A stretch of 64,000 nucleotides of DNA, from assembly GCA_036504445.1 (NCBI GenBank), contig DASXVE010000023.1, forward strand, positions 1 through 64,000, in the 5' to 3' direction. The DNA is from Candidatus Aquicultor sp. (GTDB lineage Bacteria > Actinomycetota > Aquicultoria > Aquicultorales > Aquicultoraceae). The notes under the pieces were generated by a model, which saw only the letters and a list, made by a program, of their open reading frames with translations, did not search any database and was not told the origin of the DNA. The translations under genes were made by a program, and so were the position numbers. Shown here one piece after another: positions 1,952 through 7,346 of the stretch (positions are counted from its first letter, which is position 1; each line of letters begins with the position of its first letter).

Positions 1952-1983
1952 CGTTCTTTGAAAAATGAACAGATTGGCCGGAC
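1952..1983 (+). promoter_or_regulatory. rRNA leader: boxA-like antitermination site and 16S processing half-stem
   Basis: CGTTCTTTGAAAAATGAACA (1952-1971) resembles the boxA/leader sequence in front of Gram-positive rrn operons, and a related CTTGTTCATTGAAAAC recurs in the spacer at 3985-4000. Immediately after it, TGGCCGGAC (1975-1983) is perfectly complementary to GTCCGGCCA at 3768-3776 beyond the 16S-like RNA. This gives the 9-bp stem expected for RNase III-type processing. I see no convincing -35/-10 pair upstream; TATATAA near 1934-1940 is a possible -10. Confidence 0.6.
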
Positions 1984-2045
1984 AAAAACCAAAAATATTA
2001 ATCTTGTTACCTCGCTTGTGATGCCTGGCATCCAGTGAGGTTTAT

Positions 2046-3690
2046 TAATCTGCGGGTCTGGTCCCGGCCCAGGACGAACGCTGGCGGCATGCACTTGCCC
2101 CGACAAGTCGAGCGGACTGTTCCTACAATTTCTGTAACCGTAGCACGTTTGCTATGGATTAGGAAAAGGACGGTTACGCGGCGAACGGCGGAGTAACACG
2201 TAGGTGACCTGCCTCAAAGACCGGAATAACCTCACCCCGGGAGGCCCTAAAAAGGTCACTTGGGATGAGCTAATGCCGTATAAGCTCACACTGCTCATGC
2301 GGCGTGAGAAAAGGTAGCCCTTAATCAAGGCTTCCGCTTTGAGATGAGCCTGCGCCCCATCAGGCAGTTGGTGGTGTAAAAGACTACCAAGCCGATGACG
2401 GGTAGCTGGCCCGAGAGGGTGGTCAGCCCGACCGGAACTGAGACAAGGCCCGGGCCCGAAAGGGCTAGCGGGGTGGAATCTATCGCAATGCGCGAAAGCG
2501 TGACGATGCAATGCCGCGTGAAGGAAGAAAGCAGGTGAAAACACCTGTCGTAAACTCCAGTCGGTGGGGAGTAAGCGTGGCCGGTTAAGAGCCGGACCAC
2601 GTGAAAGTACCTGCCGGTAAGAGCGCCGACAAACTGCGTGCCAGCAGTCGCGGTCAAACGTAGGGCGCAAGCGTTGTCCGGAATTACTGGGCGTAAAGGG
2701 TACGTAGGCGGCTTGGGCGTATCGGCTGTGAAAGCCCTCCGCAAAACGGAGGAAGGGCAGCCGAGATTACTCGGCTAGAGCCCGGCGGAAGGAAGTGGAA
2801 CTTCCGATGTAGCAGTAAAATGCGTTGATATCGGAAAGAACCCCAAACGGCGAAGGCAGCTTCCTATACCGTGGCTGACGCTAAAGTACGAAAGCCAGGG
2901 GAGCGATGCGGTTTGGTACCCGCGTAGTCCTGGCTGTAAAAGATGGGCACTAGCTCCCGACCCTCAGGAAGGCCGGAGGCGAAGCTAACGCATTAAGTGC
3001 CCCGCCTGGGGAGTACGGCCGCAAGGCTGAAAACCAAGGGACTTGTGGAAACCTGCACAATCGGCGGCGAGTGTGGTTTAATGCGATTTCGAGCGCAGAA
3101 TCTTACCAAGGTCGCCCGTGCGTGAAAGCCGGTGGAAACACTGGCATGCCGTTCAAACTGTGGGCAACCCACGGTGACGCGGAAACTCGCACAGGCAGGC
3201 ATGAATGGTCACCGTCAGCCCGTGCCGTGAGGCGTGAGGTCAAATCCTCGTAACGGGCGCAACCCCTTACCCCATGTTGCCATCGGACACACGCCGGGCA
3301 CTCATAGGGGACTGCCCGCGTTCGAAGTGGGAGGAAGGCGGGGACGACGGCAGATCCGTATGTGCTGAGTACCTTGGGCTACACACACGCGACAGTGATC
3401 GGGACAAAGAGGGCCGATCCCGCGAGGGGGAGGAAATCTCAAAAAACCGACCGAGGTACGGATTGCAGTCTGGAACCCGACTGCATGAAGATGAAGCCGA
3501 TAGTAATCGCAGATCATCAAGCTGCGGTGAATACGTTCTCAGGTTTTCTTCATATTGCCGGCCGCATCCGCCATAGAAGAAGCAGCTGAAGCTACGCGGC
3601 CCAACCGGACCCCAGCGGGCCTCATTTTTGAGGTTTACTGGGACCCGGAGGACGGTAGCGAGGCTGCTCCGACGAGGCGGTCGTAGGATG
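2046..3690 (+). rRNA. 16S-like rRNA with altered functional centres
   Basis: Homology to 16S rRNA is unmistakable along its length (AGGACGAACGCTGGCGGCAT near 2071, GGAATTACTGGGCGTAAAGG near 2680, GAAGCTAACGCATTAAGTG near 2982), at about 1645 nt. It departs from consensus at sites that are nearly invariant in life. The 27F, 515F, 806R and 926R priming sites all carry changes. The 790 loop is UUUGGUAC (2912-2919). The C1400/A1408 strand and the A1492/A1493 strand (3647-3655) are rewritten, the h45 tetraloop is CGAC (3670-3673), and CCUCC is absent at the 3' end. Helices are kept by paired changes: h1 2054-2058/2066-2070, pseudoknot 2062-2064/3038-3040, h18 2629/2648, h24 2908-2911/2920-2923, h28 3049-3055/3540-3546, h31 3082-3085/3094-3097. 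Numbering follows E. coli, aligned by eye from memory. I infer a paralogous, structure-conserved RNA rather than the cell's working 16S. Confidence 0.9.
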
Positions 3691-4021
3691 GGCATACTGC
3701 CCGTACCGAGAGGTGTGGGCGTAAACTTGGAGCTCAGGCTCTTCTTTTAAGATGCCAAAAGCTCGATGTCCGGCCAGGAGTTCCGGCTCCGGGTTCCCCC
3801 GGGGGCAACCCCCAGGCAACACCCGTCCGGACGATCTCCAAGGTTTGCACATAAACCTTGGGGCTGAAGGTTCAAGGCTAAAAGTCCAATGGTGAAGATG
3901 CCGATTTTCATTGTTGGGTGGGGCCGAGCAGCCCAACCAGCCTTGAGCCTTGAGCCCGCACGGCGCGTAAACCGTGCGTCTCACCTTGTTCATTGAAAAC
4001 AATATAGCGTGCATTAGAAAG
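3691..4021 (+). other. 16S-23S spacer without tRNA; second boxA-like site and processing stems
   Basis: No tRNA can be folded here. The spacer carries GTCCGGCCA (3768-3776), pairing with the leader. It has a stem of GGTTCAAGGCT with AGCCTTGAGCC (about 3869-3955), a GCACGG/CCGTGC hairpin (about 3959-3979), and a boxA-like CTTGTTCATTGAAAAC (3985-4000). ATAGCGTGCA (4004-4013) is perfectly complementary to TGCACGCTAT at 7271-7280 beyond the 23S-like RNA, the expected 23S processing stem. Keeping these parts argues that the locus is still transcribed and processed as one precursor. Confidence 0.7.
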
Positions 4022-7000: not shown

Positions 7001-7261
7001 CGTTTGAAACTTGAGGGAAGCCGCCCTAAGTACGCAAGGAACAGGGTGGACGGACCTATGGTGTGCCAGTTGTCCCGCCAGGGGCACCGCTGGGTAGCTA
7101 CGTCCGGAATGGATAAGCGCTGAAAGCATATAAGCGCGAAGCCAGTCCCGAGATTAGGTTTCTAAAGTCCCAGGTAGACTACCTGGTTGATAGGCCGCAG
7201 GTGTACACCCCGTGAGGGGCTTAGCCAAGCGGTACTAATGACAAATAAGCTTAATACACGG
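4022..7261 (+). rRNA. 23S-like rRNA with altered catalytic and factor-binding loops
   Basis: Clear 23S homology (GATAGCTGGTTCTCCCCGAA near 5018, terminal stem TATTAAGC 4026-4033 with GCTTAATA 7249-7256), about 3240 nt. By eye alignment to E. coli, the central loop around A2451 reads GGGAAAAUGGGG (6820-6831). P-loop GGG 2251-2253 is UUU (6625-6627). The A-loop is UUGAUC (6927-6932), the H69 loop is UGAGGGAAG (6299-6307), and the sarcin-ricin sequence is AGUACGCAAGGA (7029-7040). Supporting stems are conserved through paired changes: H69 GGCCG/CGGCC 6294-6298/6308-6312, H92 UGGA/UCCA 6923-6926/6933-6936, H93 GACCAU/AUGGUC 6963-6968/6975-6980. Expansion segments lie near 5398-5530 and 5989-6098. 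No 5S gene follows. It is a structured 23S paralogue that should not work as an ordinary peptidyl-transferase RNA. Confidence 0.9.
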
Positions 7262-7311
7262 TTAACCTAGTGCACGCTATTTCTTTTGATAATTCTATAA
7301 ATATATAACCC

Positions 7312-7346
7312 AAAAAGCTGTTCACTGATTGCGAACAGCTTTTTTA
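7312..7346 (+). terminator. intrinsic terminator of the rRNA-like operon
   Basis: AGCTGTTC (7316-7323) pairs with GAACAGCT (7333-7340) across a 9-base loop, preceded by A5 and followed by T-rich sequence. It closes the operon directly after the 23S processing stem, leaving no room for a 5S gene. The remaining bases to 7557 show nothing I recognise. Confidence 0.85.

Follow-up and report, generated by a model that had tools for sequence, protein, structure and literature searches.

Second rRNA operons that are assigned to specialised ribosomes and kept across relatives are known from Vibrio vulnificus (rrnI), Haloarcula (rrnB) and Scytonema hyalinum (a divergent operon). The stage-specific rRNAs of Plasmodium belong to translating ribosomes. 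Ribosome hibernation by 100S dimers involves normal ribosomes, in which the RNA is unaltered. That hibernation acts on normal ribosomes is also stated in a passage of PMC12186496. Until 2017, the highest 16S heterogeneity on record for prokaryotes was 7.3-9.0%, with structure and possible function nearly identical, as described in part of PMC5658200. Sections of PMC9586635 discuss divergent rRNA operons as translating specialised ribosomes and treat the Plasmodium types as paralogous rRNA genes in one genome. Among the literature matches listed, with bioRxiv and most subscription papers outside their scope, no rRNA pair like the one presented here was described.

The window analysed here spans 64 kb from the start of contig C23 (79,122 bases) of genome G000, a 2.57-Mb genome in 34 contigs that is given as 100% complete. 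It carries a divergent rRNA paralogue, a gene pair of some uncultured Actinomycetota that is abbreviated below as the D type. The pair is like bacterial 16S and 23S rRNA (RF00177 and RF02541) in its covariance-model match, secondary structure and operon order, and also in its boxA-like sites, LSU processing stem and terminator. It differs from them in functional invariant letters, in the absence of the anti-Shine-Dalgarno sequence and in the L1 stalk, which three of the four LSUs have lost or replaced. It shares with the Vibrio, Haloarcula and Scytonema operons the state of a second rRNA operon kept across relatives, but it stands about 32-35% from the canonical genes of its class and phylum, and functional letters are replaced. 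An rrn operon for specialised ribosomes is expected to lie beside a normal one, as the D operon does, and to keep its functional centres, which the D operon does not. As in Plasmodium, the D genes are paralogous rRNA genes in one genome. The outcome shared with hibernation may be ribosomal material held out of translation, but in the D type the RNA itself is changed.

All features of the operon lie on the forward strand. The Rfam search found a full-length 16S-like gene at 2046-3729 (1012 bits, RF00177 model positions 1-1533) and a full-length 23S-like gene at 4026-7258 (2109 bits, RF02541 model positions 1-2925). Canonical full-length SSUs scored 1546-1590 bits in one comparison set and 1448-1617 bits in another, from which the broken SSU genes of G011 and G083 were omitted; the canonical LSU of the family member G005 scored 2829 bits. 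The leader contains a boxA-like site at 1951-1964 (TCGTTCTTTGAAAA, letters checked), and a site of the same kind is present in G001 and G005; none was seen by eye in the 110 leader bases of G009. It is followed by the 5′ arm of the SSU processing stem at 1974-1984, which is complementary over 11 nt to the 3′ arm at 3767-3777 (TTGGCCGGACA / TGTCCGGCCAG). These arms were found by sequence scan and their letters were checked; a complementarity scan gave no equally clear SSU stem in G009 or G001. Reading by eye revealed a hairpin immediately 5′ of the SSU (2010-2040), with a similar pre-SSU leader hairpin in G005, and an ITS hairpin (3781-3825) that is alike in G000, G001, G005 and G009. The ITS also carries a boxA-like site at 3986-4000 (in its G001 version, TGCTCTTTAACA) and the 5′ arm of the LSU processing stem at 4004-4017. 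This arm pairs over 14 bp with the 3′ arm at 7267-7280 (AUAGCGUGCAUUAG / CUAGUGCACGCUAU; sequence scan, letters checked), and the stem is retained, with altered letters, in all four syntenic D operons.

An intrinsic terminator hairpin with a T run was read by eye at 7312-7346; the hairpin scan did not list it, presumably because its 9-base loop falls outside the 3-8 limit of the scan. Other hairpins with T runs lie 3′ of the D LSU in G009 and G005. Promoter- and terminator-like sites at the G000 operon were no commoner than in shuffles, and no promoter was identified. The original prediction of an rrn-like operon lacking 5S and tRNA was borne out in the window: the Rfam search detected no 5S behind the D LSU, and the 64 kb contain no tRNA gene. 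The lack of 5S holds for this copy and not for the G001 version, which has a 5S gene 3′ of the LSU.

It had also been predicted that the cell should own a normal rRNA set, and such sequences were found. Contig C10 of G000 (65 kb) carries sequence from the 3′ end of a canonical 23S, in which A2451, the A-loop and the SRL have their normal letters, followed by 5S; this piece and the canonical 23S of G005 share 94.6% identity. Part of the C10 locus is masked, the canonical 16S of G000 was not seen, and none of the genomes is closed. In G005, a complete canonical 23S with 5S lies on C137 (2829 bits) and the D LSU on C28 (1966 bits), so that canonical 23S and D genes occur in one genome. A further canonical-type 23S of G000, on the 3-kb contig C21, is 77% identical to the G005 canonical gene; it is a possible contaminant and was not used as proof. 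The D rRNA is a real paralogue beside a canonical set, which supports the proposal of a paralogous rRNA pair with a possible new role. The refuting conditions set for this proposal, as far as they could be applied, did not hold: canonical rrn sequence is present, relatives that keep the locus keep its helices, and those shown to lack it do so cleanly. Ribosomal proteins appear to be shared between the two kinds of rRNA, as judged from the two that were tested, uS7 and uL2. The former is single-copy in 11 of 11 family genomes and the latter in 10 of 11, with none found in G010, which is 77% complete.

The distribution of the D type was determined with a D-specific 16S pattern. At zero mismatches it occurs in 5 of the 36 genomes of the class; matches with three mismatches were taken as canonical from their letters. 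The five (G000, G001, G005, G009 and G011) are among the 12 genomes of the order that were compared, and the other 24 class genomes gave no such match. The first four belong to one family and G011 to a second family of the order. Among 84,980 species, the exact pattern matched three records, taken to be G011, G001 and G009; such an exact search would miss distant D types. Two exact D patterns gave no match in a virus collection. The SSU profile search of the genomes overlooked the split D 16S of G005, so its zeros do not prove absence. In 100 phylum genomes, the only full-length match below 1400 bits besides the SSU of the window was that of G083 (1006 bits). We rejected it as a D copy: its P loop, A2451 and A-loop letters are canonical, and so, but for single letters, are its 530, 790, 966 and 1400 regions. 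It is a broken canonical gene whose score is lowered because some stretches are missing or unrelated. The SSU on contig C50 of G011 (1208 bits) was likewise rejected, with canonical 530, 790 and 966 regions and a broken 3′ end.

In four of the five genomes (G000, G001, G005 and G009) the operon occupies one chromosomal place, and the copies have family-specific neighbours in common on contigs of 24-79 kb. Downstream, an ARC6-IMS-like gene (a weak match, below the Pfam cut-off) is present in G000, G009 and G005 and was not found by tblastn in G001. A DUF5714 gene follows the operon in all four; DUF5658 and further genes come next in G000, G001 and G005, and the G009 contig stops after DUF5714. 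Upstream, G000, G001 and G009 share a small membrane protein gene and a conserved structured ncRNA (1629-1820, forward strand in G000); G000 and G009 also have a mechanosensitive channel gene there. The ncRNA of G005 lies on a separate contig, which also holds the 5′ part of the D 16S. The ncRNA is separate from the operon; aligned in five genomes, it has 61 predicted pairs, 12 of them with double changes, and a z of -6.1, and it gave no Rfam match. It occurs also where the D operon is absent.

Such absence was established at the locus for three genomes of genus g4 (G003, G006 and G010), in which the ncRNA is contiguous with the downstream genes and no rRNA lies between them. These genomes are cleanly without the operon and hold no decayed remnant, and the locus helices are intact in the relatives that keep it. 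The clean absence would most simply be a loss, and it suggests that the operon is dispensable. Elsewhere in the family, contigs end on both sides of the locus in G004, the contig begins near it in G002, and the locus was not found in G007 and G008. The D copy of G011 lacks the syntenic neighbours within the 12 kb examined. Homology of its SSU stops near E. coli position 1410, where it adjoins an inverted 23S 5′ end, and a misassembly is possible there.

The relationship of the copies was assessed with unrooted trees of both subunits. In the SSU tree and in the LSU tree, the D rows form one clade (100/100). The D SSUs are 82.6-86.7% identical within the family (about 83-87%), 70.2-70.7% identical between the family and G011, and 65.2-68.4% identical to their canonical counterparts in the class and phylum. 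The D LSUs are 78.3-85.0% identical among themselves. The G005-G009 pair has 85.0% identity, in comparison with 94.7% for the canonical LSUs of G005 and G007, which suggests that the D LSU evolves roughly three times faster than the canonical 23S (15% vs 5% divergence). Neighbouring proteins are 30-75% identical between the genera, and judged by these identities the D rRNA is far from free drift.

To what extent the helices are kept was determined on 365 SSU and 310 LSU pairs, taken from the Rfam structure lines and covering parts of both molecules. The structure was fitted to the G000 copy, which biases the G000 figure upwards, and sequence alignment served to place the remaining rows. In the SSU, 88.5-93.8% of the pairs are formed in D rows vs 85.9-88.9% in canonical rows, and in the LSU 93.2-95.4% vs 90.2-93.4%. 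Double changes among D rows were found at 68 SSU pairs, as compared with 5-13 in slid-partner controls, and at 29 LSU pairs, as compared with 1-3. Where the D cells are unlike any canonical pair, 242 of 340 in the SSU (71%) and 201 of 240 in the LSU (84%) still pair, as compared with 31% and 34% expected under random mutation of those sides. The data agree with the earlier claim that paired substitutions keep the helices. Covariation far above the slid controls, together with intact helices in relatives, contradicts simple decay, which the earlier claim had likewise discounted. This analysis showed that the D rRNA is selected for rRNA secondary structure.

The functional centres were compared with E. 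coli rrnB as the numbering reference and with canonical rows held out as controls. The lists of functional, bridge and ribosomal-protein sites, which we take to be correct in E. coli numbering, were transferred by MAFFT. In the D SSU, 30 of 69 functional invariant sites are changed in G000, 33/69 in G009, 36/69 in G001 and 26/60 in G005 (43-52%), and 14/49 (29%) in G011; held-out canonical SSU rows change 0-1 of 69-70. In the D LSU, the changes amount to 35-44% (G000 21/48, G001 20/48, G009 19/48, G005 17/48), as compared with 0-1 of 48-49 sites in canonical rows, 0/48 in E. coli and 0/11 in the truncated G024. The canonical LSU of G014 has 6/54 changed, probably from intron trimming; introns of canonical 23S genes were left out of the LSU alignment, and H69 is thinly covered in some canonical rows. 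At other invariant sites, D rows change 18-21% in the SSU and 21-26% in the LSU, and held-out canonical rows 1-8% and 1-17%, with E. coli highest. For seven of the nine D rows, change at functional sites significantly exceeds this level; the excess falls short of significance in the G011 SSU (p = 0.08) and the G005 LSU (p = 0.14). With wider lists, the sites changed in every D copy are 28/139 functional vs 78/792 other sites in the SSU, and 48/172 vs 193/1640 in the LSU. Functional sites are also more variable among D copies in the SSU (21/69 vs 118/862 others, p = 0.0006) and no more variable in the LSU (15/48 vs 458/1764, p = 0.41).

In the decoding site, all four copies covering A1492 have U there, and A1493 is retained in G000 only (A/U/U/U). 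C1400 has become U/A/A/A/A, C1404 is G in five of five copies and U1498 is G in four of four. No CCUCC is found at the 3′ end of the four D SSUs covering the anti-Shine-Dalgarno, and it is also missing from the next 40 bases in G000, G009 and G001. In the P loop, G2251 is U in all four LSUs and G2252 is retained in one (G001); G2253 and C2394 are replaced in every family D copy covering them. The changes U2449>A, A2451>U, A2453>G, U2504>A, G2583>A and U2584>A are fixed in the four LSUs, a hint that a new constraint, and not just loss, is at work. The SRL carries G2661>A and C2666>A in 4/4 copies and retains 10 of its 14 positions in all, and its loop becomes GCAA or GAAA, like a plain GNRA cap. 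The letters of the A-loop and H69 differ from one D copy to another, so that they show no new pairing to a tRNA end that the copies have in common. Of the 97 invariant positions in LSU domain III (E. coli 1401-1600), 42 are changed in all D copies. G009 and G005 have the L1 stalk shortened to a small hairpin; in G001 an unrelated palindrome takes its place, and the G000 stalk is rewritten. G001 has an inserted palindrome in each of its two D genes. The bridge letters are mixed: A702, G785 and G1849 are replaced, and most of H71, H62 and A900 is retained.

The original prediction that nearly all functional loops differ was overstated, given the counts for G000, and several loops are kept. In the 530 loop, 2 of 17 positions are changed in any of the five copies compared. 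Also retained are h27, A1339, G1401, C1402, A2450, G2505 and U2506, most of the 5′ domain and 16S body, and the core of the GTPase-associated centre, much of which is kept. The regions bound by S4 and S7 are among the best-kept parts: 0/15 invariant positions are changed in all D copies and 2/15 in any for S4, and 1/44 and 5/44 for S7. The corresponding figures are 1/16 and 7/16 for S8 and 2/16 and 4/16 for S15. Taken as a whole, the comparison showed orthologous D copies in five genomes, with rRNA-style processing signals retained and with many of the positions that are nearly invariant in canonical rRNA changed.

Several explanations of this pattern were considered. An assembly chimera or a contaminating contig could be suspected where no genome is closed, metagenome assemblies are among them and the G011 copy lies beside an inverted 23S end; the recurrence of the D type in five assemblies, of which three have different public accessions, and the common neighbours of the four syntenic copies make it scarcely credible. 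A decaying rRNA pseudogene would account for the threefold rate, the absence in g4, the early end of SSU homology in G011 and the palindromes in both G001 genes. Decay is hard to reconcile with the structure, the processing signals and the synteny; compensatory changes far exceed the slid controls in independent genomes, the LSU processing stem, ITS boxA-like sites and terminators are kept, and identical derived letters recur in five genomes of two families, so we consider a pseudogene highly improbable.

Among functional readings, a specialised translating ribosome would make protein on special messages, for example leaderless ones, or from unusual substrates. The 530 loop, h27, most of the 16S body, the GAC core and several PTC letters are retained, the G001 operon includes 5S, and Vibrio rrnI is described in part of PMC9586635 as a known divergent operon that alters mRNA choice. 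However, A1492, A2451, G2251, G2253, C2394 and the anti-Shine-Dalgarno are replaced in all covering family copies, the A-loop and H69 offer no consistent new tRNA-end pairing, and the L1 stalk is cut, replaced or rewritten in the four LSUs. This reading is quite unlikely in our judgement. We rate as unlikely, to a somewhat lesser degree, a pure RNA scaffold or regulator lacking the full ribosomal protein set, for example a platform for other proteins. Selection visible above all on helices and the strongly reworked domain III (42/97) favour it, and the good state of the S4 and S7 sites counts against it. A joint neofunctionalisation, in which a second ribosome-derived RNP with an activity of its own has its decoding and peptidyl-transfer regions rebuilt (several replacements are fixed in all copies) for a task other than protein synthesis directed by mRNA, is conceivable and clearly short of an even chance.

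The reading to which we give about even weight is that the D type is an ancient, maintained rRNA operon paralogue of one order of Actinomycetota, folding into subunit-like particles without ordinary translation. The operon would be transcribed with boxA antitermination and its transcript cut at the LSU stem. The RNAs would then assemble with the ordinary ribosomal proteins of the cell into 30S-like and 50S-like particles. Such particles would be incapable of ordinary initiation, decoding and peptidyl transfer because the anti-Shine-Dalgarno, A1492, C1400, the P loop, A2451/U2504/G2583 and the SRL are replaced, and with several bridge loops replaced, the subunits would probably fail to form a normal 70S. 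A mostly kept protein-binding core, together with catalytic and substrate sites that are exchanged more often, would fit a particle that has to fold, and probably to bind ribosomal proteins, with no need to translate. The functional features that are kept may allow residual translation of an unusual kind. As to the role, the particles may be a translation-dead ribosome mimic: by holding or titrating ribosomal proteins, together with factors that bind ribosomes or help to assemble them, they would tune or store ribosome capacity. Titration or storage appears the likeliest role, and it is offered tentatively, as doubtful in itself.

Ribosomal RNA is the yardstick of universality, and across all cells its functional letters vary very little. 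The D genes call for caution, in that 16S-like genes from the environment need not mark ribosomes or taxa. The pair, which is vertically inherited, separates the structural and protein-binding demands on rRNA from the demands of translation, and in this sense it is a natural experiment on the ribosome. It could reveal a non-translating particle derived from the ribosome.

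Upstream of the rRNA-like operon, window positions 1629–1820 (plus strand) encode a structured RNA of 192 nt that is conserved, with a T run behind it. In relatives, a TTTGAAAA-like site is located 5′ of this RNA. A search of Rfam 15 gave no match for it. With the use of a covariance model, the RNA was detected in 10 of the 36 genomes of the class; these ten comprise eight in the family of the source genome and, as weaker matches, two in another family. It occurs also in genomes that have no rRNA-like operon at this place.

The divergent SSU and LSU of G001, a genome of the same family, are each interrupted by a palindrome that resembles the one in the other gene (GGGACGTTC ... 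GAACGTCCC, TTGCAA arms). The two copies, one per gene, are located near positions 6408–6463 and 9929–9984 of the G001 stretch L030. Motifs related to this element are present in G009, another member of the family. The divergent 16S of G011, from a second family of the order, contains insertions and directly faces the 5′ end of a 23S in inverted orientation (stretch L031, 1–3000). Either the locus was rearranged or the assembly is wrong here.

The divergent LSUs gave no match to group I introns. Such introns, together with long insertions, were observed in the canonical 23S of G007 (L033), G005 (L045) and G014 (L092). A 3-kb contig of the source genome (C21, L022) carries a canonical-type 23S with just 77% identity to the canonical 23S of G005. 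The contig is possibly a contaminant of the genome bin.

A 5S gene (91 bits) was found in G001 about 30 bases 3′ of the divergent LSU (L030, 10800–10915). The search for 5S behind the divergent LSUs of the source genome, G005 and G009 revealed none. In G006, which belongs to a genus cleanly lacking the rRNA-like operon, the canonical operon's 5S (98 bits) is followed by a second one (L046, 6352–6467) with a lower score (73.7 bits).
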